From a virus: a stretch of 25,085 nucleotides of DNA. Made by a program: the position numbers and the translations under genes. The notes under the pieces were generated by a model. That model did no database searches and was not told the DNA's origin. It saw nothing but the letters and a program-made list of their open reading frames with translations. The DNA lies in the IMG/VR virus record IMGVR_UViG_3300028569_000161, positions 1 to 25,085 of that record; one strand, 5' to 3'. Below are positions 903 to 22,310 of the stretch, one piece after another (the stretch's first letter is position 1; each line of letters begins with the position of its first letter).

Positions 903-1020
903 GTCGTAGACCGACAAGAAGTGGAGTGTGGTAATGAAAGGGATTACTAATTATATCTTGATTGCAAGGTTAAACCTTGCGTAAGTGATATAAAACATAA
1001 TCCCCACATTTTACCACTTG
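903..1020 (+). ncRNA. Candidate structured RNA with four nested helices
   Basis: Perfectly complementary segments nest in order: GTGGTAA (928-934) with TTACCAC (1011-1017); GGGATTA (940-946) with TAATCCC (998-1004); TTATATC (951-957) with GATATAA (987-993); GCAAGGT (964-970) with ACCTTGC (974-980). A small GTCG/CGAC hairpin (903-906/912-915) precedes them. Internal loops of about 5-6 bases separate the helices. There is no coding frame here and G+C is higher than in neighbouring intergenic sequence. Further weak pairings downstream (CACTAAAT near 1071, ATTAGTG near 1109) suggest the RNA could extend to about 1130. It matches no tRNA or tmRNA layout, and I cannot assign a family. An inverted repeat acting in DNA, such as an origin element, is the main alternative. 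Confidence 0.5.
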
Positions 1021-1149
1021 ATTTTGTGTTATTAGTTGTGTAGATTTAAAGGGTCAATTGTTTAAGGATCCACTAAATGGGTCGTTGAAGATGTCTTTTT
1101 AATGATCTATTAGTGAACTACTAACAACATAAATGTCTGTACCTGGCTT

Positions 1150-1362
1150 ATGAACTATAACGTACCTTTTTTACTGGGAAATAGATATAGTAAAAAAAGT
1201 GGTCCTCTAGGTACCTACAGAGGGGATAAATCGATGTTCTACATACCTACAACAATGATTGCGGTGGTAGAAAGTGGGAACTATAGAGTGGTAAAAAGTG
1301 GGGAAGGGGATTGTGTTGCGTGTGAGTCATACACTTTTTTTTCAAAAAAACAAGAAATTTAA
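1150..1362 (+). CDS. Doubtful small ORF, 70 residues
   Basis: An ATG-initiated frame of 70 codons with no recognised domain. The product is basic and Gly/Ser/Tyr-rich. Its codon use (GTG, GGG, CTA) is less A/T-biased at third positions than the tagged genes downstream, and no ribosome-site or TATTTAT element precedes it. It sits between the structured RNA candidate and the HNH gene. It could be a small accessory gene of that mobile-looking segment or a chance frame in non-coding sequence. Confidence 0.25.
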   Translation: MNYNVPFLLGNRYSKKSGPLGTYRGDKSMFYIPTTMIAVVESGNYRVVKSGEGDCVACESYTFFSKKQEI

Positions 1363-1437
1363 CATTTTTTTATTAACAAAATCCTTTATAATAACCCCAA
1401 TATCGGTATATTTATTAACAAATACGGTTAATAACTA

Positions 1438-2058
1438 ATGGAAAAAAAGTGTAATAAATGTGATATTGTAAAAAATATTGAGGAATTTCAGAAATGTTCT
1501 GAATGTAAAGATGGTTATAGAAACGCGTGTAGAGAATGTAGGAAAGAAATTTCAACTTTATGGAGACAAAATAACCCAGACGCATATAAAAAATGGGTGG
1601 AAAATAATAGTGAATATGATAAAGAAAGAAAAAAAAATCATTACGAACAAAATAAAGAAACTTACATTAATCGATCAACTAATTATCGTAAGGATAATTT
1701 AGATAAAGTAAATCGATGGGTTAGGGATTATCGTAAAAAAAGATTTTCAGAAGACGAGGTTTTTAAAATGACATTTACAGTTAGAAGTCGTATTAGAAAT
1801 TTACTAAAATTAAAAAATGAATTAAAACTTGGTAAGACGTTTGAACTAATTGGTTGTTCACCCCAAGAATTAACTAAACATATAGAAAATCAATTTACAG
1901 ATGGGATGTCTTGGGATAACCACGGTGAGTGGCATATAGATCATATTATTCCATTAGCGAGTGCTAAAACAAAAGAAGATTTAATAAAATTGTGTCATTA
2001 CACAAACCTACAACCACTGTGGGCTAACGACAACCTAAAGAAAGGTAAAAGGATATGA
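1438..2058 (+). CDS. HNH homing-type endonuclease
   Basis: A 206-residue protein with the full layout of phage free-standing HNH nucleases. An N-terminal zinc-ribbon-like part has four CxxC-type cysteine pairs (C5/C8, C20/C23, C31/C34). A long basic linker with repeated Asn-Tyr-Lys segments follows. The C-terminal HNH domain shows GEWHIDHIIPLASA, then LCHYTNLQPLWANDNLKKG, where WHIDHI supplies the first His pair and the NLQPLW...N part supplies the central Asn and helix. Such enzymes nick or cut DNA and spread themselves between phage genomes. The start ATG lies directly after AT-rich sequence with no clear ribosome site. The stop overlaps the next start (ATGA at 2055-2058), so the following small gene is probably co-translated. 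The nuclease may be mobile together with the flanking non-coding RNA-like sequence, but no intron boundary could be defined. Confidence 0.93.
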   Translation: MEKKCNKCDIVKNIEEFQKCSECKDGYRNACRECRKEISTLWRQNNPDAYKKWVENNSEYDKERKKNHYEQNKETYINRSTNYRKDNLDKVNRWVRDYRKKRFSEDEVFKMTFTVRSRIRNLLKLKNELKLGKTFELIGCSPQELTKHIENQFTDGMSWDNHGEWHIDHIIPLASAKTKEDLIKLCHYTNLQPLWANDNLKKGKRI

Positions 2059-2330
2059 ACACTGTACTAGACATTTTTAATCCCCAAGTTACTAAATCAG
2101 CAAGTACCATAACTGTGACATATTGTCACGACTTATATTCTGGCACGTGTACCTACAATGAAACGGTACTTCAAGGCACCAAGTTCAAGCAACGTGTGAA
2201 TATATTAACAAATACAGATATGGGGGATGTAATAGAATACCTATACAAGACTGGGGAAGTAACTGGTCCCCAGGATTTAGAAAGAATATCATATCTTATT
2301 CAAACACATTCAAGAGCACAGATAGAATAA
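2055..2330 (+). CDS. Small unknown protein translationally coupled to the HNH gene
   Basis: A 91-residue frame whose ATG overlaps the stop of the HNH gene in an ATGA arrangement, the usual sign of translational coupling. No domain is recognised. The first half is predicted beta-rich (STITVTYCHDLYSGTCTYNE, two Cys) and the second half looks helical (DMGDVIEYLYKTGEV ... DLERISYLIQTHSRAQIE), reminiscent of a small DNA-binding or regulatory protein. Base use is richer in C and G than in the tagged genes. The coupling makes a real gene likely; its role next to a homing nuclease is unknown. Confidence 0.6.
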   Translation: MNTVLDIFNPQVTKSASTITVTYCHDLYSGTCTYNETVLQGTKFKQRVNILTNTDMGDVIEYLYKTGEVTGPQDLERISYLIQTHSRAQIE

Positions 2331-2339
2331 CTATGTACA

Positions 2340-2490
2340 CTTTTCAAAGTTAGTGTATATTTATTATAAGAGTTCATTTTCCCCACAGTAGGGAATTAGT
2401 TGTTCAGTAACCCAGGTGGTACGTAAAGATCAAGATGAATCTTAAACAACCTAATTTCTAATCCCCCTCAAATGGGTGGGGAATTTTTCT
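2340..2490 (+). ncRNA. Hairpin-rich segment ending in a terminator
   Basis: Several helices lie in a row: ACACT ... AGTGT just after the upstream gene; GAATTAGTTGTT (from about 2391) against AACAACCTAATTTC (to about 2460) with one bulge; and AAGAT/ATCTT inside it. The segment ends in CCCC (2463-2466) pairing with GGGG (2478-2481) followed by ATTTTTC. It could be the structured 3' end of the HNH transcript or a small separate RNA. No coding frame is present. Confidence 0.35.
2461..2489 (+). terminator. Probable rho-independent terminator
   Basis: TCCCC (2462-2466) pairs with GGGGA (2478-2482), followed by TTTTT. It probably ends the HNH operon transcript. Confidence 0.55.
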
Positions 2491-2668
2491 ATGTCTTATA
2501 TTTTTATAAGGTAGGTCGGAGTTTACCCTCTGCAATCCCCAAGTGTGAGACTGAACCCGTCGTCGGGATTACCATAGACAATACAAAGGTACATATAATA
2601 ATTGAGACTTCCTAATGGTCGGGTAAATTTATTTACCACCACCAAACAATTAGTGGATTATTATATAT

Positions 2669-2679
2669 GACAATATGAC
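2669..2679 (+). repeat. GACANTNTGAC repeat, copy 1
   Basis: GACAATATGAC, followed one base later by the palindrome TAGGGGACCCCTA. Confidence 0.5.
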
Positions 2680-2728
2680 ATAGGGGACCCCTACCATCAT
2701 ATTACCCCCTCCCCCCCCCATACCTACT

Positions 2729-2739
2729 GACATTATGAC
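2729..2739 (+). repeat. GACANTNTGAC repeat, copy 2
   Basis: GACATTATGAC, 60 bases after copy 1, followed directly by CGGGGGCCCCTCCGG. Confidence 0.5.
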
Positions 2740-2770
2740 CGGGGGCCCCTCCGGTATCCCCCCTATATAG

Positions 2771-2781
2771 GACATTCTGAC
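2771..2781 (+). repeat. GACANTNTGAC repeat, copy 3
   Basis: GACATTCTGAC, 42 bases after copy 2. Its first base is the last base of the palindrome CCTATATAGG, and a GGGGGG run follows. Confidence 0.5.
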
Positions 2782-2890
2782 AGGTAGAAAGGGGGGCTCA
2801 ATCCCAAAAATGAAGTATTCGTAAAAAAATTTCTAAAAAAAATTTTGGGAAAATCCGGTTTATGTTTCCACCATTATTATAACGTGGGTA

Positions 2891-2902: not shown

Positions 2903-3526
2903 ATGAAAAGGATTATAAGATTAACAGAATCAGATTTGATTAGATTTGTCAGACGAATTATCAACGAGGAAACATCTGGTCTTGGAGATTTTGTTGGGAC
3001 CTTAAAATCAAACTTTAATATTTCAGATGAGTTGGTCGATTTTGTTAGTGACTTTATTCAAAAATCAGATTGTAATAAAATAGAATTTACAAAATTTAAA
3101 TATCCTGCCTTAGGGGCTGCTTTACATAATGGGGTGTTAATTAATAATATGGTTCTTAATAGTTCATTGGAACTTACTTTGTTTGTCATATTTCACGAGA
3201 TTGCCCATCAGTACCAGTATAAGAAATATGGTATTGAAAAAATGTATGAATTTTATAACAATGAAATATCGGTTGTTGATACCGCCAAGTTTATGAAGGA
3301 AGTGGAAATGGTTGCCGATAATTTTGCATCCCGAAAAATTAGAGAACTACAAAAAATGGGATTGATTGATAGAAACTACGTACCAATTGAAATGTATAAA
3401 ACCGTTCCTGAAACCCAACTTGTTCATTTCATTAATAGTATTAGATCACAATTAAGGTCTAATAATATTACTTCTCAGGATGACATTAGTGAGTTTTATT
3501 ATAACTTGATAAAAGGCAACCTCTAA
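2903..3526 (+). CDS. Leader-bearing HExxH zinc metalloprotease-like protein
   Basis: A 207-residue protein. Residues 1-23 form the long type of shared leader (MKRIIRLTESDLIRFVRRII followed by NEE), predicted to be an amphipathic basic helix. The body has FHEIAHQY at 97-104 (H98, E99, H102), a classic zinc-binding and catalytic HExxH. A second motif, EVEMVADNFA at 133-142, fits the downstream Glu ligand helix of gluzincin-type peptidases. Together these make a metal-dependent peptidase likely, though the substrate is unknown and the protein is short for a secreted protease. There is no signal peptide. Inference: if the leader directs the protein to the phage head, the enzyme could act inside the virion or be delivered into the host at infection. 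Confidence 0.88.
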   Translation: MKRIIRLTESDLIRFVRRIINEETSGLGDFVGTLKSNFNISDELVDFVSDFIQKSDCNKIEFTKFKYPALGAALHNGVLINNMVLNSSLELTLFVIFHEIAHQYQYKKYGIEKMYEFYNNEISVVDTAKFMKEVEMVADNFASRKIRELQKMGLIDRNYVPIEMYKTVPETQLVHFINSIRSQLRSNNITSQDDISEFYYNLIKGNL

Positions 3527-3625
3527 TTTATTAATTACCCCCCATTTAATTAAGTGTGGAGTTTTTACAATATGTAAAGTAAAATCCTTCTAATCTTTAA
3601 AGTCGACCCCCTCTATAAAATAACC

Positions 3626-3659
3626 TCCAAAGTCAAAAAAAAAATTTTTGGAATTTTTT
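3626..3659 (+). terminator. Weak AT-rich terminator-like hairpin
   Basis: TCCAAA (3626-3631) pairs with TTTGGA (3647-3652), with A-run/T-run pairing inside, followed by TTTTTT. Upstream at 3538-3568 is a worn copy of the CCCC...GGGG terminator type (CCCCCCA ... TGTGGAG then TTTTT). Confidence 0.4.
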
Positions 3660-3672
3660 CTGGAAATTCAGG

Positions 3673-3679
3673 TATTTAT
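3673..3679 (+). promoter_or_regulatory. TATTTAT element for 3696
   Basis: TATTTAT, 16 bases before the chosen ATG. Confidence 0.45.
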
Positions 3680-3695
3680 TATTAAAGAATATATT

Positions 3696-4190
3696 ATGAA
3701 AAAAACTATACGCCTTACAGAATCAGATTTAACTAGAATTGTTAAACGAACAATTATGGAACTTGATAGGTCAACGTATTATAATGCGGCCGATGTTGCC
3801 GGTGAAAGAGGTTATAATAAACTATCTAATAAATTTCGTGAACACGGAAAAGAATTTGGTTTAAATCAAGAAAGGGATAATTGTTGTTTTATTGTTAACG
3901 TTAGAGGTGATGAAAAAATTCTAAATGTAAGAATTATAAGTGTTGAAAGTAACCCTAATTATTCTATGGACTTTGTTTTAAAAGCGGAGAATATTGATAC
4001 TGGAGCACCAATAATTTTTAACATAAATAAATTTCCTGGGAAAATGGAGTTTTATTTGAATGGGGATTATTCTTCGTTACCACAAACAAGAAAAGACGCT
4101 AAAAAAGTTTTGAAAGCGTTTGACAATGTTGGTATTGGAGTAGACGACATTGACTTAAGGTCAATATCATATGATGATAGTGGTTTTTAA
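3696..4190 (+). CDS. Leader-bearing unknown protein
   Basis: I start at the ATG at 3696 rather than an in-frame ATG at 3648, because it gives the canonical leader MKKTIRLTESDLTRIVKRTI with MEL after it, and the earlier start lies upstream of the TATTTAT element within a terminator-like hairpin. The 164-residue protein then has a charged helical part (GERGYNKLSNKFREHGKEFG) and a beta-rich middle (NCCFIVNVRGDEKILNVRII), and ends acidic (VGIGVDDIDLRSISYDDSGF). No family is recognised. A strong terminator follows within 20 bases of the stop, so this is a single-gene transcription unit. Confidence 0.85.
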   Translation: MKKTIRLTESDLTRIVKRTIMELDRSTYYNAADVAGERGYNKLSNKFREHGKEFGLNQERDNCCFIVNVRGDEKILNVRIISVESNPNYSMDFVLKAENIDTGAPIIFNINKFPGKMEFYLNGDYSSLPQTRKDAKKVLKAFDNVGIGVDDIDLRSISYDDSGF

Positions 4191-4210
4191 ATAATAAAGC
4201 AATTAATGTA

Positions 4211-4243
4211 AAAACCCCATTCCAAATAAGAGTGGGGTTTTTT
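4211..4243 (+). terminator. Rho-independent terminator
   Basis: AAAACCCCA (4211-4219) pairs with TGGGGTTTT (4233-4241) and continues into a T run. Confidence 0.88.
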
Positions 4244-4254
4244 ATTTCCCCTTA

Positions 4255-4261
4255 TATTTAT
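4255..4261 (+). promoter_or_regulatory. TATTTAT element for 4268
   Basis: TATTTAT, six bases before the ATG and directly after the preceding terminator, so it must serve this gene alone. Confidence 0.6.
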
Positions 4262-4267
4262 CTTTAT

Positions 4268-4597
4268 ATGAAAATTATTATCACTGAAAACCAAAATTAT
4301 CTTCTTAGACGAGTACAACAATTTATTGAGATTGTTGAAACGCGTATTGATGACTATGAAATGAGTGAAGATAATGCTTGGTGGTGTCGTAATGATAATC
4401 CTACTTCATTTTATGAAAGTTTTATAGATAGAACTATTGATGAATTTATTAGTCAGAACTGGGATTTCTTTCACGATGATTCTGATAAGGGTGGGGCAAA
4501 TATGGATATCAGCCTATTAAATAATATTGTTGAAGAGAACTACGGAAATTACATTATAAATATGTTTGTTCGTAAGTGTGATCAATCTCGTTGGTAA
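4268..4597 (+). CDS. Leader-bearing small unknown protein
   Basis: Start at 4268, not the in-frame ATG at 4232, which would lie inside the terminator. The 109-residue product opens with the short leader MKIIITENQNYLLRRVQQF. The rest is acidic and aromatic (DNAWWCRNDNPTSFYESF, SQNWDFFHDDSDKGG) with several Cys and Trp and no recognised domain. It resembles the neighbouring genes at 5043 and 5366 in size, leader and acidity, suggesting a locally expanded set of small proteins. Confidence 0.82.
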   Translation: MKIIITENQNYLLRRVQQFIEIVETRIDDYEMSEDNAWWCRNDNPTSFYESFIDRTIDEFISQNWDFFHDDSDKGGANMDISLLNNIVEENYGNYIINMFVRKCDQSRW

Positions 4598-4641
4598 ATA
4601 ATTAAAATTCTTCCTTTCTTATTGGGGGTATAAACCGAACC

Positions 4642-4654
4642 CGGACTTCGTCCG
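4642..4654 (+). other. Small hairpin
   Basis: CGGAC-TTC-GTCCG, a compact stem just upstream of the terminator-like hairpin at 4667. It may be part of the 3' untranslated structure of the gene ending at 4597. Confidence 0.35.
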
Positions 4655-4666
4655 TGATTTTGTCTT

Positions 4667-4688
4667 GGTCCCTTGGCGACCGTTTTTT
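4667..4688 (+). terminator. Probable terminator
   Basis: GGTC (4667-4670) and GACC (4678-4681) flank a seven-base loop and are followed by TTTTTT (4683-4688). The stem is short, so this is moderate evidence. Confidence 0.5.
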
Positions 4689-4699
4689 GAAATGGCAAA

Positions 4700-4706
4700 T
4701 ATTTAT
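4700..4706 (+). promoter_or_regulatory. TATTTAT element for 4712
   Basis: TATTTAT, five bases before the ATG. Confidence 0.55.
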
Positions 4707-4711
4707 CCTAT

Positions 4712-4993
4712 ATGAAATCCCTAATTAAAGAAGATAATATGCTAACCGAAATTGTTGATTTATATTATGAGATACCAAAAAAATTTATAGATCAGCTGGG
4801 GTTTGAGTTGTATGATGAAAATGATTCCGTTTATATTCACGAAATTCATTTTGATACACAAAATGTTGTATTTTCTTTTTATACCAAAGAATCTTGGGGT
4901 GAAGAAGTACATTATGATGATAGTGTTATTATACCAGGTAGGTTTAATGGTTATGTTCTGGTCTCAATTAAAGATTTACCAAAAGGTGTATAA
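4712..4993 (+). CDS. Small unknown protein with leader-like N terminus
   Basis: A 93-residue acidic protein starting MKSLIKEDNMLTEIVDLYYE. The opening is a shortened variant of the leader (LIKE, then LTE). The remainder alternates short beta-like strands (NDSVYIHEIHFDTQNVVFSF, then SVIIPGRFNGYVLVSIKDL) and could be a small beta-sandwich. No family is recognised. A larger-frame overlap at 4803-5021 is a shadow and was not called. Confidence 0.75.
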   Translation: MKSLIKEDNMLTEIVDLYYEIPKKFIDQLGFELYDENDSVYIHEIHFDTQNVVFSFYTKESWGEEVHYDDSVIIPGRFNGYVLVSIKDLPKGV

Positions 4994-5042
4994 ATATTAT
5001 TTTAAGAAGACTAAACCCTAAGTATTTAAAATATATGAAATT

Positions 5043-5354
5043 ATGAAAATTGTTATAACCGAATCACAACTTGAATTTATTAGAAGATACAAGGTATTAG
5101 ATAGTCTTGTTTCCGAAGCAATAGAATTTGTATCCAGTCAAGACGATGTTTGTGATTATTCATTTAAAGATTTTTTTGAAGAAGTAAAATGGCAAGTATC
5201 AGATAAATACGAAATGTTGAACTTACCAAAAGATTTGGGTCCAGAAATTGCGCAAGATTGGGTTTCAGATAATTTTTACGGTCAAATAAAAGATTTTTAT
5301 GTTGCGTATGTAGAGCCAGATTGTGAAGACTATGATGAAGAAGATGATTATTAA
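5043..5354 (+). CDS. Leader-bearing small acidic protein
   Basis: A 103-residue protein opening with MKIVITESQLEFIRRYK. The body is acidic and predicted helical, and the C terminus is a strongly acidic tail (EPDCEDYDEEDDY). A degenerate TATTTAA lies at 5023-5029. An earlier ATG at 5035 is in another frame and stops after three codons (ATG AAA TTA TGA), immediately overlapping this start, so a stop-restart arrangement is possible but may be chance. Function unknown. Confidence 0.82.
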   Translation: MKIVITESQLEFIRRYKVLDSLVSEAIEFVSSQDDVCDYSFKDFFEEVKWQVSDKYEMLNLPKDLGPEIAQDWVSDNFYGQIKDFYVAYVEPDCEDYDEEDDY

Positions 5355-5365
5355 TATATTTTAAA

Positions 5366-5668
5366 ATGAAAATAGTAATTACTGAATCACAATATAATTT
5401 CTTAAGAAGACTTCCTGCTGTTGAGGAAGAACTTAATAGACATTTAAAACGAGTTGACCCAACAAAGTTTAACGATTTTCAAGATTATGTTTCATATCTT
5501 GCAACTGCTACATTAATTTATCTTTCAGATGAAATTATAGGTAGAGAGCTTCGCGGAGAAAAATATGATTTATATACCGAATTTAAGGACTACATTGTAT
5601 ATGGGTTAAGAAACGATATAAGAAAGATTTATGATAGTGGAAAACCTGGTAGTCTATTTTCTTTTTAA
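5366..5668 (+). CDS. Leader-bearing small protein
   Basis: A 100-residue protein whose leader MKIVITESQYNFLRRL is nearly identical to that of the gene just upstream (5043), 11 bases before. The rest is helical and mixed-charge (EEELNRHLKRVDPTKFNDFQ, then YLATATLIYLSDEIIG) and ends GKPGSLFSF. The pair looks like an old duplication in which the leader has been kept while the bodies diverged. No domain is recognised. Confidence 0.82.
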   Translation: MKIVITESQYNFLRRLPAVEEELNRHLKRVDPTKFNDFQDYVSYLATATLIYLSDEIIGRELRGEKYDLYTEFKDYIVYGLRNDIRKIYDSGKPGSLFSF

Positions 5669-5690
5669 AATTATTAACTATATAACAATT

Positions 5691-5870
5691 ATGGACAACG
5701 AACTAAAAGCACAGAGGTATAATCAACTAATGTATGAATATACAAAAACACAAAATCAAATCTCATCAATAAAAGGTGAGTCACTTGAATTAAATGAAAA
5801 CCAATTAAAAACCATTCGAGACCTAGAAAATAAATTAAGGTATCTTATGGAAACGGCTTCTCGTTTGTAA
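5691..5870 (+). CDS. Small coiled-coil protein without leader
   Basis: Start placed at 5691 (MDNELKAQRYNQLMYEYTKT) because the in-frame upstream part overlaps the end of the previous gene. The 59 residues are almost entirely helical with heptad-like spacing (NQISSIKGESLELNENQLKT, then IRDLENKLRYLMETASRL), suggesting a short coiled coil. It lacks the leader and lies 22 bases after the gene ending at 5668, so it is probably expressed from the same transcript. A terminator follows directly. Confidence 0.6.
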   Translation: MDNELKAQRYNQLMYEYTKTQNQISSIKGESLELNENQLKTIRDLENKLRYLMETASRL

Positions 5871-5877
5871 TTTAATT

Positions 5878-5904
5878 CCCCATTCCTATAGAGTGGGGTT
5901 TTTT
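5878..5904 (+). terminator. Rho-independent terminator
   Basis: CCCCA (5878-5882) pairs with TGGGG (5894-5898), followed by six T. Same design as the terminator at 4211. Confidence 0.85.
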
Positions 5905-5915
5905 ATTTCATAGAG

Positions 5916-5923
5916 TATTTATA
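5916..5923 (+). promoter_or_regulatory. TATTTATA element for 5928
   Basis: TATTTATA, four bases before the ATG and right after the terminator. Confidence 0.65.
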
Positions 5924-5927
5924 ATAT

Positions 5928-6476
5928 ATGAACATCATTATAACCGAACAACAACGTAAATTTATTACAGAAATAATTAAACTTGACATTAAGGTTGGAG
6001 ATGTAATTATGGGTGGTAAATTTAAAAACAAAAAAGTTATTATTAAAACCATTGGCAAAAATGAAAAGGGGGATATTACAATTAATGGAAAACCGTTATT
6101 AAGGTTTAGATTAATAAAAGAATCTGAACATCTTAAAGGGTTATTATCAGAACTTCCACCTTTTCTTAAAAGAAGGGTTACAATGGAAGATCTAGAATGG
6201 CTTGATAAAAGTATTACTGGGGTAATTCCGGGAACACCAACAAGAAGAGACTTTGATACTTTTTGTTACGATGTCCTTGGTGATTTGCTTCACGAATTTG
6301 TGGTGGAGAGAAAAGATGATGAGATTGACACAGTTGATAGTCCGGAATATTGTTTAGTGTATAGCGAAGATGGTTTTAATGAAGTTGCATCAATTTATTG
6401 GAAATTAATGCCATTTCTTAAAAAAAGATATGAGACAAGATTACGTAATGTTTATGAAAGGAAAACACAAAGATAA
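5928..6476 (+). CDS. Leader-bearing protein with small beta-barrel-like segment
   Basis: A 182-residue protein opening with MNIIITEQQRKFITEIIKL. Residues about 22-62 (VGDVIMGGKFKNKKVIIKTI, then GDITINGKPLLRFRLIKE) have the Gly- and Lys-rich pattern of an SH3/KOW-like small beta barrel. The C-terminal part is helical (MEDLEWLDKSITGVIPGTPT, then DVLGDLLHEFVVERKDDEID, then VASIYWKLMPFLKKRYETRL) and ends in a basic tail. No enzyme motif is seen. A nucleic-acid or protein-binding role would fit the barrel plus basic tail but is only a guess. Confidence 0.83.
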   Translation: MNIIITEQQRKFITEIIKLDIKVGDVIMGGKFKNKKVIIKTIGKNEKGDITINGKPLLRFRLIKESEHLKGLLSELPPFLKRRVTMEDLEWLDKSITGVIPGTPTRRDFDTFCYDVLGDLLHEFVVERKDDEIDTVDSPEYCLVYSEDGFNEVASIYWKLMPFLKKRYETRLRNVYERKTQR

Positions 6477-6483
6477 TTAGATA

Positions 6484-6491
6484 TATTTATA
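6484..6491 (+). promoter_or_regulatory. TATTTATA element for 6496
   Basis: TATTTATA, four bases before the ATG. Confidence 0.65.
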
Positions 6492-6495
6492 AATT

Positions 6496-7143
6496 ATGAA
6501 AATACTAATAACAGAAAGACAATATGGTTTAATCCAAGAACAATGGTGGTTAACGTTTGCTGAAGCTTCAGTTTCTGAAGGTCCTAGTATGGGTTGGGGT
6601 CCAAATATTAATTTTGGTGGTGGTGTTAGTGATGCTGGTGACCCTAAAAGTTTAAAAGACACTCAAGTTCAATTAAACAAAGCGCGGACTTTAATACAAA
6701 CCGCAACAAGTTCAAAAAGTAAAATTAATAAAAAATGTTCACCCTATAACAATATTAAAATACCTATGGCAAATGCTGGTGAAATACAAGACTTTTTAAT
6801 CGCACCTGGACATCCAATAACAAAGGATTGGACTTTTGGTAATAATACCGCAACAGCACTTGGGACATATTTTTATGGAACCAAACCTGGAATAAACTCC
6901 GTTTTAAAATTATGGAACAAACTTAATGGTGAAGGCTATGATGTTGGTACAACATCTGGTTTTGGGCCGAAAATGGCAACGGCCGTTGTTTCAAAAATAA
7001 CCACAATTATTAGTAAAGTTAAAAGTGGTTGTAATACTGAATTAACAAAAATAAATAAAAGTTTAAGTAATTTAAATAAAATACAAAGTAACCTTGAGGA
7101 ATTGGAATACAAATTTTCACCAAAAGTTAGATACTCAACATAA
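6496..7143 (+). CDS. Leader-bearing unknown protein, Gly/Asn-rich
   Basis: A 215-residue protein opening with MKILITERQYGLIQEQWW. A Gly-rich stretch follows (GPSMGWGPNINFGGGVSDAG), then a soluble domain with two Cys (C76 region and GCNTELT near 179) and a helical C terminus (KINKSLSNLNKIQSNLEELE). The central part (LGTYFYGTKPGINSVLKLWN, then GFGPKMATAVVSKITTIISK) has the feel of a structural or enzymatic fold, but I recognise no family. The shadow frame on the opposite strand at its start was discarded. Confidence 0.82.
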   Translation: MKILITERQYGLIQEQWWLTFAEASVSEGPSMGWGPNINFGGGVSDAGDPKSLKDTQVQLNKARTLIQTATSSKSKINKKCSPYNNIKIPMANAGEIQDFLIAPGHPITKDWTFGNNTATALGTYFYGTKPGINSVLKLWNKLNGEGYDVGTTSGFGPKMATAVVSKITTIISKVKSGCNTELTKINKSLSNLNKIQSNLEELEYKFSPKVRYST

Positions 7144-7153
7144 AAATAATAAT

Positions 7154-7555
7154 ATGAAAAAAACTATAAGACTTTCCGAAAATGAATTAATAACTATCAT
7201 TAAAAAAATAATTAATGAAGAAATGGAAGATGAACAACCAAAAGAATTATCACCAGAAGAATGGGGAAAAATCTGGTATAAACTAAGACGTGAAAATAAA
7301 AGCTTCAATCATCCAGATATGGATAGCATGGTGTTTCCTTTTGGTGGTCTTGATTTTATGTTAAGTGAAGACGGTAAATCGTTAGAACTTATGGAATTTT
7401 TTAGAAACCCACGTAATTGGGGACACGACTATGAAAATGGTGTTGAAAAACTTGATAATTATTTTGATAAACTTTCAAAAATTATGGAAGAGTCCGGTCT
7501 TGGATTAAAATTAAAAATGGGACCTAAGTTTCATATGAAAATATTTAAATTTTAA
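7154..7555 (+). CDS. Leader-bearing small unknown protein
   Basis: The ATG at 7154 was chosen over the in-frame one at 7094, which lies inside the previous gene; it gives the long leader MKKTIRLSENELITIIKKII followed by NEE. The 133-residue product is then highly acidic (MEDEQPKELSPEEWGKIWYK), with mixed strands and helices and a Lys-rich end (LGLKLKMGPKFHMKIFKF). It follows the previous stop by ten bases without its own TATTTAT element, so it is probably the second gene of the transcript starting before 6496. Confidence 0.82.
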   Translation: MKKTIRLSENELITIIKKIINEEMEDEQPKELSPEEWGKIWYKLRRENKSFNHPDMDSMVFPFGGLDFMLSEDGKSLELMEFFRNPRNWGHDYENGVEKLDNYFDKLSKIMEESGLGLKLKMGPKFHMKIFKF

Positions 7556-7561
7556 ATTACT

Positions 7562-8017
7562 ATGGAAAATTCAGTCTTTGAAACTTTTTCGGACAAACAA
7601 ATGATTAAGTATATGAAATATGCTTCACCAATTCTTAATGAACTTGACAGACGTATTGAATATTTTTCTGATGAAATATATGGTCCAGTCGAAAAACAAC
7701 TTGCAGCACCAATTGGCGGTTCCTTATCAAGACTCGATAAGGAATATCTTTTTTATTTATATGTAAACAATGAAAATTTAGATGGTGAAAACATTAATAG
7801 ACCAACACTAAATGAAAGGACTATTAATTTTATTGTAAAAGAAACACAAATCAATTATACAACACATAGTGAAGATTTAGCAACATATGTTGATGAGTAC
7901 ATAGATCAAAGTTATTTATATCACCTAAAAGACAATGATGAAATTGATCCATGGAGTTGGGATGCTGATACTGAATATGGAGATCCAGATTATATTGATG
8001 ATGAGTGGGATTATTAA
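7562..8017 (+). CDS. Acidic unknown protein without leader
   Basis: A 151-residue protein six bases after the preceding stop. It lacks the leader (MENSVFETFSDKQMIKYMKY). The middle is helical, and the C terminus is extremely acidic with aromatic residues (DNDEIDPWSWDADTEYGDPD, then YIDDEWDY), a composition often used to mimic DNA or bind basic partners. No family is recognised. It is in one operon with the genes at 7154 and 8020. Confidence 0.8.
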   Translation: MENSVFETFSDKQMIKYMKYASPILNELDRRIEYFSDEIYGPVEKQLAAPIGGSLSRLDKEYLFYLYVNNENLDGENINRPTLNERTINFIVKETQINYTTHSEDLATYVDEYIDQSYLYHLKDNDEIDPWSWDADTEYGDPDYIDDEWDY

Positions 8018-8019
8018 TT

Positions 8020-8313
8020 ATGAATAGAGTACCTCCAGTTTTTTTAAGAAGATTTAATAGTCATAAGTTTGAAAAAATTATGAGAAAAGCTGCTATTCAC
8101 GCATATTGGGATACAAAAAATAGAGAACAGTTTAAAAGAGAATTGGCTTCATCTACAGCTGATGCTCTATTATACACAGTACATAGAATTGATCCAGAAA
8201 CACAATTAACAAAAGAAGAAATAGACGGTATTACTGATTATGTTATTGGAATTTTTAACCCAGTAATGGATTTGTATTATAACAACTTAAGAAAAGAATA
8301 CCCAATGGGTTAA
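8020..8313 (+). CDS. Small unknown protein without leader
   Basis: Start at the ATG at 8020, two bases after the previous stop; an in-frame ATG at 8005 would overlap that gene. The 97-residue product opens MNRVPPVFLRRFNSHKFEKI and is mostly helical (TADALLYTVHRIDPETQLTK, then EEIDGITDYVIGIFNPVMDL). The opening has a loose likeness to the gene at 10211 (FLMRRITPDFLKKI), hinting at a shared helical module that differs from the ITESQ leader. Function unknown. Confidence 0.78.
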   Translation: MNRVPPVFLRRFNSHKFEKIMRKAAIHAYWDTKNREQFKRELASSTADALLYTVHRIDPETQLTKEEIDGITDYVIGIFNPVMDLYYNNLRKEYPMG

Positions 8314-8320
8314 TATTTAT
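8314..8320 (+). promoter_or_regulatory. TATTTAT element for 8325
   Basis: TATTTAT, four bases before the ATG; it overlaps the region just past the previous stop. Confidence 0.6.
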
Positions 8321-8324
8321 TAGT

Positions 8325-9089
8325 ATGAAAAAATATATTCTAACAGAAGAACAATTAACAAGGGTATTAACTGAAGAAAGACCAATCAAAAAGGGTGTTG
8401 CAATTAAGTTTTCGCCAGGTAAAGATGAAGACCCAGTTTATCAGTCTCATGTGTTAGAATTTAAAGATGAACAAGAGTGGCAAGATTATAAAAAATCTCT
8501 TCCAGAAAAAAAAGAAATCATCGGTGTTATTGATATTAAAGAATCAATAAGTGAAAAAAAAAATACAGTAATTTCTGAATCCGAAATTAAAAGGGCTGAT
8601 GCCGGAAAAAAACTCCTACTAAGACACATTAAAGACGAATATCCATTTGTTATTGATATTGATATTAACTATGAAAAAAAATATGGAACTTTCGGTTATG
8701 TTAATTTTAAATTTAATCTAAATAAATTTTATGATTTTTATAATGTAACACCACCAAAAGATTACAAAAAATTTGATTTTCTTTTACCTAATCTGGAAAG
8801 TGAAGGATTATATTTATCTAGATATGTTGATGATGAATATAGAAATAAGTTTGTTAGTGAATTTAATAGAAAGTTAGAAGAACATATGAATGATTTTTAT
8901 ATGCGTTTACCAGAAAATATGAGATACTCTAAATTTGAAGATTTTTCTGATGAAGATTTTGAAAATGACGGAGATAATTTTAGAGGAGATTTGGATTTCT
9001 ATAAAAAATGGCAAAATGAAAAGGAGCCAGTTGAATTAAAAACTGATACTTTTATTCCAGTTGTTGATTTAACTAAAATAAAATTTTGA
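8325..9089 (+). CDS. Leader-bearing 254-residue unknown protein
   Basis: Opens with MKKYILTEEQLTRVLTEERP, where LTE occurs twice. A 40-residue segment (KKGVAIKFSPGKDEDPVYQS, then EFKDEQEWQDYKKSLPEKKE) looks like a small alpha/beta module. A second leader-like stretch occurs internally (VIDIKESISEKKNTVISESE, near residues 65-85). The C-terminal two thirds are rich in Phe, Tyr, Asp and Lys with no recognised motif. The internal repeat of the I-x-E pattern would give a prohead protease several possible cut sites if the leader model is right. Confidence 0.83.
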   Translation: MKKYILTEEQLTRVLTEERPIKKGVAIKFSPGKDEDPVYQSHVLEFKDEQEWQDYKKSLPEKKEIIGVIDIKESISEKKNTVISESEIKRADAGKKLLLRHIKDEYPFVIDIDINYEKKYGTFGYVNFKFNLNKFYDFYNVTPPKDYKKFDFLLPNLESEGLYLSRYVDDEYRNKFVSEFNRKLEEHMNDFYMRLPENMRYSKFEDFSDEDFENDGDNFRGDLDFYKKWQNEKEPVELKTDTFIPVVDLTKIKF

Positions 9090-9091
9090 TA

Positions 9092-9099
9092 TATTTATA
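9092..9099 (+). promoter_or_regulatory. TATTTATA element for 9105
   Basis: TATTTATA, five bases before the leader ATG of the frameshifted gene, supporting 9105 as the true start. Confidence 0.62.
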
Positions 9100-9104
9100 A
9101 TAAA

Positions 9105-9622
9105 ATGAAAAAAATTGTTAGACTTACCGAATCTGATTTAATCAGACTAGTAAAAAAAGTGAAGAATCAATTGAACTTATTAGTTCTGATGGTAAACTTG
9201 GTGATATAATCACTTCAGATATGAAAAGAGAGAAGAACCAAAATTTTTTAATTAGGAATACCGGTGGTTCCAAACAACAATGGACCGATTTAGTCTACGG
9301 TTACGTATTAAGTAATACTCTTGGTGGTCCTAACAAAAGAATTGTTAAGGCAAGTGAAAATCAAAAATTTCCACAAAAAAATAATTTAGGTGACAATTTA
9401 ATTATTTACGATTGTGACACAAAAGAACTTACTTATAGTAAACATCTTCAGACTTCGGCAAACGAGGAACAAAAAGAACGTGATGAATATTGGTTAAGTA
9501 AATACTGTTTTAAAATAGATAGATGGGATAGTAGAGTTGGTAAAAAAAGAAATATATTTAGAAACCCAAAAGATTATAGTTATACCGACCCAAAAAATTA
9601 TCCTAAGAAAAAACTAAACTGA
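9105..9622 (+). CDS. Leader-bearing unknown protein split by a -1 frame change at an A7 run
   Basis: The ATG at 9105 encodes a perfect long leader (MKKIVRLTESDLIRLVKK), but this frame stops at 9207-9209. The -1 frame, open from the same point, continues as SEESIELISSDGKLGDIITS and then the body from the ATG at 9221 to 9622. The switch point is a run of seven A (9152-9158) read as A-AAA-AAA, the heptamer geometry for -1 slippage. The body (about 140 residues) is basic and rich in Asn and Lys, with no recognised family. The frame change could be programmed, a real mutation, or a homopolymer error; if it is an error, one A is missing. Translation could also restart at 9221 and give a leaderless product. 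Its end overlaps the convergent gene by nine bases. Confidence 0.68.
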
Positions 9623-10099
9623 TAATTTATGTAATTTACAATCGTTACTAAAAAAAACATTAGTTTTACCTTTTGAATTTGTTTCGGTTATAATTACACC
9701 AAATTTATCATTAGTCATTGTTATTATTTTTACAGATATTTTAGTATCTTTTTCATTTGTATAATCAAATGTAACACAATTATTTTCTACTAACACAGAG
9801 TACAAATCACCAACAAATGTAAAATCTGGATTATTTCTTTTTGAATACCCAACAACATCGTAAGATATGTCAAATGTAAAAAAATAAAAATTTCTATTTG
9901 CTTTTTTGTAATTTGATGTAGACAAAGTATCAAAACTATTAGAATTAATTCTTGATTTTTTAAGATTTTTAATTAAAATTTGTACAGACACATACTTGTC
10001 ACCATTATTTGGTTTTATCAATGAATTGTCAATTTTTGTTTGTCCATAAACAAAATTTAAAGTCAAAAATAAAAATATTGTAAATAAGAAATTTTTCAT
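9614..10099 (-). CDS. Secreted unknown protein on the opposite strand, moron-like
   Basis: A 161-residue protein with a clear signal peptide (MKNFLFTIFLFLTLNFVYGQ), ending in Gly-Gln as in Bacteroidota signal peptidase I substrates. The mature part is beta-rich (KYVSVQILIKNL, then FYFFTFDISYDVVGY, then KISVKIITMTNDKFGVIITE) with two Cys and no lipobox, so it is probably periplasmic or cell-surface. It is the only leftward gene inside the long rightward block and has its own host-type promoter, unlike its neighbours. This layout fits a gene expressed by the host polymerase early in infection, for example for superinfection exclusion or envelope modification, but the function is not known. Confidence 0.83.
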   Translation of the reverse strand: MKNFLFTIFLFLTLNFVYGQTKIDNSLIKPNNGDKYVSVQILIKNLKKSRINSNSFDTLSTSNYKKANRNFYFFTFDISYDVVGYSKRNNPDFTFVGDLYSVLVENNCVTFDYTNEKDTKISVKIITMTNDKFGVIITETNSKGKTNVFFSNDCKLHKLSV

Positions 10100-10127
10100 A
10101 ATGTTTTTTTTTAATTGTTTTATAATA

Positions 10128-10157
10128 CAAATATATAACCTTTTTTTCTAACTACAA
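10128..10157 (-). promoter_or_regulatory. Bacteroidota-type promoter for the 9614-10099 gene
   Basis: On the minus strand, TTTG (10157-10154) is followed after 18 bases by TATATTTG (10135-10128), matching the Bacteroidota TTTG / TAnnTTTG boxes. The predicted transcript would start near 10121, about 20 bases before the ATG. Confidence 0.65.
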
Positions 10158-10198
10158 AATAATTTAACATCATTTTTAAATGTTTTGTTTTTTATAAC

Positions 10199-10205
10199 TA
10201 TTTAT
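10199..10205 (+). promoter_or_regulatory. TATTTAT element for 10211
   Basis: TATTTAT, five bases before the ATG. It lies divergent to the host-type promoter at 10128-10157. Confidence 0.55.
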
Positions 10206-10210
10206 TTGAT

Positions 10211-10531
10211 ATGAATAAAGGATTAGAATTTTTAATGAGGAGAATCACGCCAGATTTTTTAAAAAAAATACTTGCAAGAGAATTGGAAGATCAAGCACCT
10301 TGTTATTATCGTGATAAATATGGTGACTATTTTGGAAAAGGTAAATATTTGGAAGTTGTTATTGACGGCATTTCAGATAGTATATTTTATGTTTACACAA
10401 AAGATAATCCAGCTACGGATGAAGAATCTGAAAATGAAATAATAAAAGACACGGTAGAGAAACTATTTTCAAATACAATAGAAGATTACTTTGATGATTC
10501 GGATTGTTCTGATTACAACAGAGAATTTTAA
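10211..10531 (+). CDS. Small acidic unknown protein
   Basis: A 106-residue protein opening MNKGLEFLMRRITPDFLKKI, without the ITESQ leader but with a basic amphipathic start. The rest is acidic (NPATDEESENEIIKDTVEKL, then DYFDDSDCSDYNREF) with a short beta-like centre (KYLEVVIDGISDSIFYVYTK). It is loosely similar in plan to the protein at 8020. It precedes the leader-bearing gene at 10541 by nine bases and is probably co-transcribed with it. Confidence 0.78.
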   Translation: MNKGLEFLMRRITPDFLKKILARELEDQAPCYYRDKYGDYFGKGKYLEVVIDGISDSIFYVYTKDNPATDEESENEIIKDTVEKLFSNTIEDYFDDSDCSDYNREF

Positions 10532-10540
10532 TAATTATAT

Positions 10541-11101
10541 ATGAAATATCTAATTACAGAATCACAAGGGTCTAGATTGAAAAATCAATTAACACAATCA
10601 TTTAATGAAATTGGTTTTGCTGAAACAATTGATAGATATAAATTAACTATATCCCAACTTGATATAATATATAAAAATTCAAGATTACCAGAATTTAGTT
10701 GTGATGATTTAAATGAAATTTGTTCTGGTCTTATTTGGGGTAGTGATGTAAAAAAAAAATATACAACAAAAAAATATGACATTTTGTTAGATATGGACGA
10801 TTTTGTAAGTTCTGTATTTTTTCGAGTAACAGATAAAAAAACAACAAATAGTCTTGATGGTTATGCGACACCTTACTGGGATGGTAACTGTTTTTTACCA
10901 ATTGATATTGAATATTACAATTTTACAGATGATGATGGTGATTCAGATAATAAAGAAGTGACCGGTGATTGTTATGAACGATATAAATTACCAACAGAAT
11001 TTGAAAGTTTCCAAGCTATAGTAGATTGGATGGAAAATGATTATATCAAATATATAATTGATTTTTGTAGAAAGACCTTTGAAGAATTGGAAAGTGAGTA
11101 A
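10541..11101 (+). CDS. Leader-bearing unknown protein
   Basis: A 186-residue protein opening MKYLITESQGSRLKNQLTQS. The central region has aromatic and acidic residues (LDMDDFVSSVFFRVTDKKTT, then YATPYWDGNCFLPIDIEYYN), and the C terminus is helical (ESFQAIVDWMENDYIKYIID). Three Cys are scattered. No family is recognised. It has no TATTTAT element of its own and follows the previous gene closely. Confidence 0.82.
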   Translation: MKYLITESQGSRLKNQLTQSFNEIGFAETIDRYKLTISQLDIIYKNSRLPEFSCDDLNEICSGLIWGSDVKKKYTTKKYDILLDMDDFVSSVFFRVTDKKTTNSLDGYATPYWDGNCFLPIDIEYYNFTDDDGDSDNKEVTGDCYERYKLPTEFESFQAIVDWMENDYIKYIIDFCRKTFEELESE

Positions 11102-11108
11102 TATTTAT
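11102..11108 (+). promoter_or_regulatory. TATTTAT element for 11126
   Basis: TATTTAT, 17 bases before the ATG; it overlaps the last base region of the previous gene. Confidence 0.4.
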
Positions 11109-11125
11109 TAATATAAAAAATAATT

Positions 11126-11665
11126 ATGTCAAAAATATTAGTAACCGAAGAACAATTCCAAATGTTAATGAAAAGGATAACAGAAGAAGCCGCCGGATAT
11201 GACGACTATGGTGTTATGGCTCAACACGGTGGTGCTTCTATGAGAGTTTTAGTTGACTCGCTTACAGATTTATCACAAGTTCTTAGAGGTGTTGTTCATA
11301 TGTTAAAATCTGAAAATATTGAATATGTTGATTTAGAAGAAAATTTGTATCTAGTAATCGAATTAATTTCAGAAATTAATACGGCTATGGATATAGTATT
11401 TAAAGATTTTACCGAAAGAGAAGTAATTAAAACAGGTAAAATTTTACACAGAAAACTAGAGTCCTATCAAGAAAAAATTAGAATGATGCTTAATATGGGT
11501 GAAGAACTAATATCAAAAGAAAATATCATTGATAAATTAACTGATTTAACAATGAGTGTACATAGAGCTATGACAGATTACGCCGCCGAATTAAAAGTCG
11601 CAGACATAAAATTTCAAGTAAGATCTGAAAAAGGAAGACCAAAACCAAAAACTGATTTAAATTAA
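11126..11665 (+). CDS. Leader-bearing all-helical protein
   Basis: A 179-residue protein opening MSKILVTEEQFQMLMKRITE, with ITEE after the first helix. The rest is predicted almost entirely helical with long amphipathic helices (LTDLSQVLRGVVHMLKSENI, then YLVIELISEINTAMDIVFKD, then NIIDKLTDLTMSVHRAMTDY) and a basic C-terminal tail (RSEKGRPKPKTDLN). This looks like a helical bundle. It is slightly less AT-biased in codon use than its neighbours. A structural or scaffold-like role would fit the shape but cannot be shown. Confidence 0.83.
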   Translation: MSKILVTEEQFQMLMKRITEEAAGYDDYGVMAQHGGASMRVLVDSLTDLSQVLRGVVHMLKSENIEYVDLEENLYLVIELISEINTAMDIVFKDFTEREVIKTGKILHRKLESYQEKIRMMLNMGEELISKENIIDKLTDLTMSVHRAMTDYAAELKVADIKFQVRSEKGRPKPKTDLN

Positions 11666-13566: not shown

Positions 13567-13597
13567 AAAAAGGGACTTTAAGTCCCTTTTTCTTTTT
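13565..13597. terminator. Bidirectional terminator
   Basis: AGGGACT (13571-13577) pairs with AGTCCCT (13581-13587), with an A run on the left and a T run on the right. It separates the convergent genes ending at 13566 and 13597 and serves both. Confidence 0.9.
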
Positions 13598-14022
13598 TAC
13601 TCAACCTCTAAAAGCTCCAAATCAAAAATTAACTTTTGCCCAGCCAACGGATGGTTTGCATCCAAAACAACAACACTTTCTTTTACTTCAACAACTTTTA
13701 CAATTACAGGACCATTAGGACCAAATGTTTGTAACATAGCACCTTCTTCTACTCCTTCTGGAACACGATCTTTAGGGATTTCAGTAATCAACTCGTCATT
13801 GTAGTCACCATATGCTTCAGTGTGTGGAATTTCTACCGTTTTTTTATCACCAATAGTCATATCAATTAATCCAGATTCAAAACCAGGTATTAATTGTCCT
13901 TGACCTAACGTTGCTTTAAGTGGTTCACGACCTTCATTCAATGAAGAATCAAAAATAGAACCATCTTCCAATCTACCTGTGTAATTTACAGTCACAGTAC
14001 TGTTTAGACTTACTTTGCTCAT
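13597..14022 (-). CDS. FKBP-type peptidyl-prolyl cis-trans isomerase (SlyD-like)
   Basis: A 141-residue single-domain FKBP that speeds prolyl isomerisation during protein folding. The N-terminal strand VTVNYTGRLEDGSIFDSS is the family signature (Y and the F-D pair line the active site), followed by GQGQLIPGFESGLIDMTIGD, the conserved central part. A flap-like insertion (DRVPEGVEEGAMLQTFGPNG) and the ending DANHPLAGQKLIFDLELLEV place it with the SlyD branch, which also acts as a chaperone. There is no signal peptide, so it is cytoplasmic. It lacks the leader and TATTTATA element of its neighbours and is transcribed against them. Phage FKBPs are uncommon; this may be a host-derived gene aiding folding of phage proteins. 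Confidence 0.95.
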   Translation of the reverse strand: MSKVSLNSTVTVNYTGRLEDGSIFDSSLNEGREPLKATLGQGQLIPGFESGLIDMTIGDKKTVEIPHTEAYGDYNDELITEIPKDRVPEGVEEGAMLQTFGPNGPVIVKVVEVKESVVVLDANHPLAGQKLIFDLELLEVE

Positions 14023-21430: not shown

Positions 21431-22310
21431 ATGAAAAAAAGATTTGTAATAACAGAAAATGAAAAAAAAACATATAAGAAATTTATATGGTTTGTTAGTT
21501 GAGGTGGTTAATACAACTGGTTGTACTTTTAGTGATGTTTATAAAAACACTTTAACCGATTATAATGAAATAATGTCTAAGTATGGTAATGACTTTAATA
21601 AAGTTTCTGAAATTTTAACAACTAAAGCAAAAGAAATATTACAGAATGTAAAAAATAAGAATCAAAATGAAAATCTAGAATTTAGGTCTGCCTGTCAAGT
21701 CGCTTTAAATACTATAAGACCAAATTACCAAGATAAACCTTGGTTAATAATAGATCAGGTTAAAAATACTGTTTATTTTTTTGATAATGGTGGAACATAT
21801 TTAACTGGGACTTTAGCCATTATGGGAAAAGATAAACCAACCAAAGAATTTGATACTTGGTCTAAAATGAGTTATGACGAAAGAGTAAAGTCTGGTCTTG
21901 GTGACCCAATATCTAAAGCTGGGGGTAAATTTGCACCTACTGGTGTGTTTAACGCTGGACCAGGACAAACTTACACACAATATACGGGTGCCGGAACATC
22001 AGAAGAACCTAAAAAAAATCTTTGGTCTTATTTTGACGAATCTGGTAAAGAATTAGTACAAGCAATACACGGAGTTAAAGACACTAAAGAAAGAAGTGAA
22101 GCCTTTAAATGTGTAAATGGTACAACACTAACTAAAGATACAAATTTAGATTTATCTAGTGGTTGTATAAATTTACCAACAACTTTTTTAGATAAATTAA
22201 ATAATTTGGGAATTGATATATCCAAGTATAGAATTTTTAGCTTAGGCGATAAAGACTATTTAGTTAAAAATTCATCAAATGTTGACGATTCAAATATCAC
22301 GTCCGCGTAA
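21431..22310 (+). CDS. L,D-transpeptidase (YkuD) with leader split by a frame change
   Basis: The ATG at 21431 encodes MKKRFVITENEKK, but that frame stops at 21500-21502. The next frame (+1), from an internal ATG at 21459, continues HIRNLYGLLVEVVNTTG. Joined across the nine-A run (21462-21470), the two give ITENEKKHIRNLYGLLVE, matching the third leader type. The body has the YkuD fold: PWLIIDQVKNTVYFFDNGGT, then APTGVFNAGPG, then QAIHGVK (H204, counting from 21459) and LSSGCINLP (Cys236), with Ser in place of the usual His before GC. L,D-transpeptidases form 3-3 peptidoglycan cross-links; in a phage it may remodel or cut the wall. The product may still be made from 21459 without the first half of the leader. 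Confidence 0.88.

Follow-up and report, generated by a model that had tools for sequence, protein, structure and literature searches.

Features of the locus

The window analysed here is a 25,085-base virus fragment from IMG/VR, and all positions are given in window coordinates. An island of C/G runs and short repeats occupies part of a 572-base gap between c1, a small conserved ORF, and the ORF at 2903-3526 (Table 1). Three iteron-like repeats had been described in this island by a sequence-only reading of the DNA; exact copies were located on the plus strand at 2669-2679 (GACAATATGAC), 2729-2739 (GACATTATGAC) and 2771-2781 (GACATTCTGAC), and checking by coordinate returned the same spacing of 60 and 42 bases. 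The pattern GACANTMTGAC matches three times in the whole 25,085-base record, each time in the island, and at least two copies of the repeat were present in none of 2000 dinucleotide-preserving shuffles of 2331-2902. The palindromes TAGGGGACCCCTA and CCTATATAGG, the GGGGGCCCC block (2741-2749) and the C9 run were also found as described.

Analysis of composition revealed that a makeup wholly unlike the rest of the window is an overstatement: the GC content of the island is 0.39, and other 500-base windows reach 0.404. Since 293 of 2000 dinucleotide-preserving shuffles of 2331-2902 contained as many C/G runs of at least five, such runs are not improbable for the local composition. The distinctive trait is nevertheless the runs, as three of the window's five C/G runs of six or more fall in the island, and the island patch ranks top in the window by a G4Hunter-type score. 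The extent first assigned to the feature, 2620-2800, ends too early: the feature runs past 2800, and its best-conserved part is 2746-2853. This stretch of about 110 bp is hereafter called the element; looser repeats lie upstream of it.

Table 1. Features mapped around the element, in window coordinates
Feature	Position	Strand	Basis
Left-array gene with NLQESIRRILREE tag, open at contig start	2-610	+	Tag sequence
Non-coding block before c1, conserved; its end in relatives is site 1 (CTGACATTTTGACAAAATCAAG..TTATTAACA)	926-1316	+	Comparison
Degenerate site 1; TTATTAACA retained at 1370-1378	1321-1378	+	Comparison with relatives
HNH endonuclease-like ORF between site 1 and c1	1438-2058	+	PF01844, E=0.0073, below curated cut-off
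c1, small conserved ORF of 91 aa, left of the element	2055-2330	+	19 of 26 loci
Terminator-like hairpin and T-run, possible end of left transcription unit	2466-2481	+	Consensus match only
-7 element TACCTTTG of putative Bacteroidota-type promoter, leftward away from the element	2584-2591	-	Motif match
Iteron-like repeat 1, TGACAATATGACA	2668-2680	+	Sequence
Palindrome TAGGGGACCCCTA	2681-2693	n/a	Sequence
CCCCCTCCCCCCCCC run including C9 (2711-2719); minus strand G-rich	2705-2719	+	Top G4Hunter-type score in window
Iteron-like repeat 2, TGACATTATGACC	2728-2740	+	Sequence
CCGGGGGCCCCTCCGG block, imperfect palindrome; most relatives have CCCCCTCCCCCC(T)CCG here	2739-2754	n/a	Alignment
Conserved core (GTATCCCCCC..TGACATTCTGACA, GGGGGG, TCAATCCC, TATTCG, A/T-tracts)	2746-2853	+	blastn; 26-locus alignment
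Palindrome CCTATATAGG; relatives have CCCATATATG	2762-2771	n/a	Alignment
Iteron-like repeat 3, GGACATTCTGACA, the conserved copy (consensus TGACATTTTGACA)	2770-2782	+	Alignment
GGGGGG(C)TCAATCCC block	2791-2805	+	Alignment
TATTCG, then A/T-tracts (consensus AAAAAATTTCTGGAAAAATTTTTGGGAAAAA); possible unwinding/bent-DNA element	2816-2853	+	Identity 0.72
Right array start; TESQ/LTESD-type tags at 2903, 3696, 4268, 5043, 5366, 5928 and others	2903-11665	+	ORF starts

A perfect palindrome similar to the iterons (GTGACATATTGTCAC) occurs within the coding sequence of c1 (2114-2130). Hairpin inserts of the GTGTCGGTCTCCGACAC type stand beside CTCCACT/AGTGGAG at 900-930 in the window and in the loci L100, L103, L088 and L012; their place varies (upstream of c1 or of the element), resembling a small mobile palindrome. 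Minus-strand genes for an FKBP-type peptidyl-prolyl isomerase and an IMP dehydrogenase/GMP reductase lie at 13597-14022 and 22297-23262.

Conservation of the element in related viruses

Relatives were identified through the neighbouring genes and then through the sequence of the element itself. The 17-mer CCGTATCCCCCCCATAT matched 22 IMG/VR contigs, once in each, so that these phages can be found by a simple DNA tag. Together with G009 and G001, which match longer search patterns with one and two mismatches respectively, and the diverged G028, these contigs make up 25 relatives, or 26 loci with the window; G010 was left out of the loci as a near copy of G009. The element was single in every matching record (7 of 7 and 18 of 20; n=25, with G010 included and G028 not), the two blanks among the 20 records scanned being G008 and G011, which gave no element match. 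G028, a 310-kb contig with a related pattern, also has one copy. Two other candidates, G029 and G030, had a 19-mer in common and the rest of the element absent, and were dropped.

Of 13 loci compared by blastn, 10 showed the conserved core, and two of the 10 are near copies. The mean pairwise identity of the three parts of the core was 0.80, 0.66 and 0.72, and that of the flanks and the looser upstream C-run part was 0.41-0.46. The internal order is fixed (C-runs, CCGTATCCCCCCCATATATGACATTTTGACA, GGGGGG, TCAATCCC, TATTCG, A/T-tracts), and the alignment consensus reads CCCCC(T)CCCCCC(T/C)CCGTATCCCCCCCATATATGACATTTTGACAgg..aaaGGGGGgTCAATCCC..aaaTgAaaTATTCGtaAAAAAATTTCTGGAAAAATTTTTGGGAAAAA; the copy in the window is diverged among the aligned loci. 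The G-run score was highest at the element in all three contigs scored, and an A+T-rich stretch, the conserved A/T-tracts at 2823-2853, adjoins the iteron and G-run directly on the right.

The repeats are not scattered through the genomes. Whole-contig counts of the 13-mer TGWCATTYTGWCA were two in G003 (296 kb), three in G002 (257 kb) and one in G001 (273 kb); five of these six copies belong to the element or to a second site described below (site 1), the exception being one 13-mer in G002. Flanking genes differ between loci although the element is conserved, and its persistence even where the flanks change is the opposite of the absence from relatives with conserved flanks that had been named as evidence against a functional site. 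Our analysis supports the element as a conserved, single-copy, cis-acting DNA site, autonomous of the flanking genes. A dedicated cis site made up of iteron-like repeats and G/C blocks is supported; the choice among the functions offered with it (origin, packaging, recombination or operator) does not follow from it.

Analysis of the sequence beside the element revealed TGGCA[TC] at -130..-10 in 13 of 25 loci (0.54 expected). DnaA-box-like sites, TTAT[TC][AC]ACA, occur at -220..+20 in 16 of 25 loci (1.41 expected), which are not 16 independent events because the loci share ancestry; they are absent from that interval in the other nine, the window included. Expected counts were derived from the same loci, the relatedness of the loci applies to the TGGCA[TC] count as well, and G025 was omitted from both counts as its contig begins at the element. 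In a 257-billion-base collection of cellular genomes the 17-mer had four exact matches, each within or overlapping a predicted ORF of an unrelated bacterial contig that lacks the other parts of the element; all four were rejected as chance. The intergenic region, the downstream gene and c1 gave no match in isolate phages (50,697 records for the region and c1), and no description of the element or of the paired tags described below came up in literature searches of an open-licence library.

The element is oriented, and its C-rich strand is the coding strand of the flanking gene arrays, as would be expected of an element acting as RNA, whether a structured leader, a non-coding RNA or a C-rich Rho-loading site. 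A hairpin in the block upstream of c1 also co-varies (GTCC-TAAA-GGAC with GACA-TAAA-TGTC). However, consensus folding of that block is weak, folding of the element is barely stronger than that of shuffled sequences (z -0.05 to -1.47), and pairing of the C-run with the G-run is altered or lost in G005, G021 and G022. Rfam gave no match at gathering score in the window and one sub-threshold hit among the relatives L078, L100 and L089. Function at the RNA level is therefore hardly probable. A large structured RNA upstream of c1 was considered and is not claimed, as hairpins co-vary locally yet consensus folding is weak. A tRNA search gave nothing usable.

Two tagged gene arrays

The element divides two gene arrays with different N-terminal tags. 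The array proteins are otherwise unrelated, and their common part is a short N-terminal tag (NLQE..ILREE on the left, TESQ/LTESD..VIKE on the right). Counting with broad patterns on both strands, 9 kb each side, NLQE..IRRILREE or LIRHILKE tags on the strand of the element were found in 71 genes to the left and two to the right, both of the latter in G028, and TESQ/LTESDLTRIVKR tags in 10 genes to the left and 172 to the right. An earlier count limited to the plus strand, with narrow patterns and uneven flanks, gave 67 and 0 for the NLQE type and 8 and 175 for TESQ. Tagged genes on the minus strand numbered eight on the left (seven in G004) and one on the right; G004 and G028 are the exceptions to the left/right rule. 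TESQ genes were present on the right in all 24 loci that have a right-hand ORF.

Genes of the left array are mostly packed head to tail. The motif TATTTAT is found upstream of 102 of 150 right-array genes, compared with 14 of 59 left-array genes. In most right-array genes TATATTTAT (in some TATTTATAAATA) recurs shortly before the start codon and is possibly a phage promoter.

Both tags contain the [LI]xE prohead-protease motif, and the genomes carry a gp21-type protease (PF03420, 6 of 6 contigs). Processing sites of T4 Alt are given as ITE-6 and LTE-619 in passages of two papers (PMC5694885; PMC3012670). The tags MKIIITE/SQ and ..LTE/SD resemble these T4 protease sites and therefore look like capsid targeting sequences. 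The arrays possibly represent a large set of packaged, injected proteins, which would likely form a counter-defence reservoir. A search with the tag consensus in isolate phages gave only two chance-level matches (E about 9).

Second site, c1 and signals for transcription

A second copy of the 13-mer, site 1, lies 0.7-2 kb upstream of the element, just before c1. It carries TGACATTTTGACA in 17 of 18 aligned relatives, mostly followed by TTATTAACA; the iteron count is one to three copies in the element and one at site 1. The structure model of c1 is confident (pLDDT 90.7), and a structural search gave no match at E<=0.001. The HNH endonuclease-like ORF that precedes c1 in the window is missing from that place in L007, the closest relative. 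More than one locus has HNH endonuclease-like ORFs near the element: the window (1438-2058) and, as cluster 7, G005 (+64), G007 (+684 and +2479) and G019 (+118).

Minus-strand motifs left of the element were called putative promoters on the basis of TTTG..TAnnTTTG, the Bacteroidota-type promoter consensus. The -7 core was found in 15 of 25 loci (2.86 expected) and the full bipartite motif in 10 of 25 (1.04 expected), the window not being among these ten. An ORF of 45-72 amino acids on the minus strand (cluster c3), similar to small membrane proteins, lies left of the element in eight loci; many of these ORFs end near IxDxDLEP-like residues, and their leftward transcription may start at the putative promoter next to the element.

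The location of site 1 ahead of c1 and the minus-strand promoter motifs adjoining the element make control of transcription the main rival to a role in replication. A phage regulator would bind TGACA..TGACA both in site 1, at the promoter of c1, and in the element, where the right array begins; the A/T-tracts would be UP-like, and the element would insulate the left operon from the right array and drive divergent transcription. The position of site 1 directly upstream of c1, followed by ATATTTATTAACA, agrees with such a role, as do the promoter motifs on the minus strand, the terminator-like hairpin, the element's place before the first gene of the right array in all 24 loci that have a right-hand ORF, and the unequal distribution of TATTTAT between the arrays. 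However, the distance from the element to the first gene ranges from about 60 to more than 600 bp and the first gene varies, unlike what is seen with an operator or promoter. A conserved unit of more than 100 bp with fixed spacing and long C-runs also exceeds what a regulator site needs, and the promoter-like motifs of right-array genes are their own. Overall, transcription control is a possible explanation of the element, and a doubtful one.

Genome context and gene turnover

The carriers of the element are large uncultivated T4-like viruses of bacteria, that is, T4-type jumbo phages. G003 has T4-type genes for portal, major head protein and tail sheath and a DnaB-like helicase. All six contigs searched have a gene for the gp21-type prohead protease, which follows the element downstream at a distance of 54-84 kb; for G028 this holds only on a circular reading of the contig. 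Terminase_6C was found in none of the six. The N-terminal half of the G003 portal ORF (L047:2873-5965, 1031 aa) also matches HNH endonuclease families, which suggests an inserted endonuclease or intein. As to kind, the element belongs with the cis-acting control sites of T4-type phages; what is unusual is its position between two tagged arrays.

A single-copy, oriented element could also be a pac- or cos-like packaging site or genome terminus, and contig ends do cluster at it, with 3 of 27 within 100 bp (0.10 expected) and 7 of 27 within 2 kb (1.96 expected). The overhangs of 21, 47 and 84 nt, however, fit assembly-graph breaks at a core common to co-occurring relatives, and most contigs, large ones included, pass straight through the element. 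A review passage describes T4 genomes as circularly permuted (PMC3016281), and the head genes here are of T4 type; the order of genes around the element agrees with circular maps, and the prohead protease gene is 54-84 kb away. A packaging function is accordingly very improbable. The contigs that end within 100 bp of the element are G014, G016 and G025, probably through assembly breaks.

Gene sharing was compared among three collinear contigs, G001-G003 (257-296 kb), in 10-kb bins, after removal of the first 20 residues (the tags) from proteins longer than 70 amino acids. The fraction of ORFs common to all three was 0.10 in the bins at -10..0 and 0..10 kb and 0.53-0.77 from -140 to -60 kb. Because other bins were also poorly shared (0.03 at +80..+90 kb; 0.13-0.28 over -60..-10 kb), the element lies inside a broad variable region and not at a unique point. 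Homologs stand at similar distances from the element in the three contigs: between -140 and -60 kb the median shift per bin was 1.0-5.3 kb, and on the right of the element it was larger, up to 28 kb. The element is constant while the neighbouring genes turn over.

Very low gene sharing around an element that stands between differently tagged arrays (71/2 and 10/172 genes left/right) would also be seen at an integron-like site of recombination or cassette insertion, at which tagged cargo genes are received on either side, and the recurrence of HNH endonuclease-like ORFs beside the element (in the window, G005, G007 and G019) fits such gene capture. However, the 13-mer and GTATCCCCC are absent from the gene junctions of the arrays and confined to the locus except for the one 13-mer in G002, the element is always single, and no recombinase gene was noticed beside it in a general inspection. 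The near absence of the 13-mer from other parts of the contigs speaks against an att-like recombination site. Gene capture is thus an improbable account of the element.

Replication initiation as the favoured reading

We propose, with a probability of roughly 45%, that replication in a group of uncultivated T4-type jumbo phages is initiated in a region whose conserved core is the island, and that this region is also a hotspot of gene turnover. An origin is favoured by the anatomy seen in the sequence: iteron-like sites, DnaA-box-like sites, a core of G/C runs and a block of A/T-tracts. Also in favour are the single copy per genome, the higher identity of the core than of its flanks, the near confinement of the 13-mer to the locus, the stable distance to other genes, the low gene sharing on both sides, the DnaB-like helicase of G003 and the precedents among T4 origins. 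An initiator encoded by the phage, or else DnaA of the host acting with a phage partner, would bind TGACATTTTGACA and the TTAT(T/C)AACA sites; the long G/C runs would hold the DNA as a G-quadruplex or R-loop, an altered form of the duplex, and strand opening and loading of a DnaB-type helicase would take place at the A/T-tracts. Repeated initiation and recombination-dependent restart would then make the flanks a hotspot of gene exchange, and in this proposal the two capsid-targeted cargo arrays therefore meet at a constant site.

Several observations speak against this reading. GC skew, which the sequence-only reading had put forward as a check, shows no switch at the element in G001-G003; both GC skew and third-position skew follow gene strand in these three long contigs, and an origin is unsupported by skew. 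Such a switch is usual, though not required, at origins of the iteron type. The iterons, one to three, are few for an iteron origin, and nine of 25 loci, including the window, lack the DnaA-box-like sites. The 13-mer of site 1 is in an operator-like position just upstream of c1, no DnaA homolog was found in the eight contigs searched, and c1 is without a structural match. Origin-linked turnover is further opposed by the poor sharing of other parts of G001-G003 (0.03 at +80 to +90 kb).

Should the island prove to be an origin, a group of uncultivated T4-type jumbo phages would have a candidate initiation site defined by sequence, and the position of the origin would be linked to very fast gene turnover. 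The further step, in which initiation and recombination driven by the element renew two arrays of capsid-targeted, probably injected proteins, with one tag per array, is unlikely on present evidence; if it is true, a T4-type jumbo phage keeps a constant site amid a constantly renewed effector library.

Comparison with known systems

The G-rich R-loop primers of mitochondrial CSB II and of the ColE1 type have a G5-6 A G5-6 tract on one strand. Like these, the tract of the element could in principle form a G-quadruplex or R-loop. As in integrons, with attI and a cassette array, a fixed site stands beside arrays of variable genes; unlike in integrons, there are no repeats at the gene junctions here, and the genes have their own promoter motifs or operon packing.

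The arrays resemble Alt and the internal proteins with capsid targeting sequences of T-even phages in that diverse proteins have just a short N-terminal tag in common, and in that the tags contain ITE and LTE, as do the T4 Alt processing sites (PMC5694885; PMC3012670). The present arrays differ in having two distinct tags, in two arrays around one element, and many genes per genome.

With the T4 origins the element has in common that its carriers are also T4-type, as judged by head and tail genes. According to passages of a review (PMC3016281), T4 oriE has 12-nt iterons, direct repeats that are short, evenly spaced and retained where related phages are syntenic, for which the same passages describe the link to oriE activity as not established, and oriF and oriG have an A+T-rich unwinding element beside a promoter; both types are precedents for an origin-type site. 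The T4 origins share no common motif among themselves, whereas the element is dominated by its long C/G runs and a single 13-bp double-TGACA motif, and DnaA-box-like sites lie nearby.
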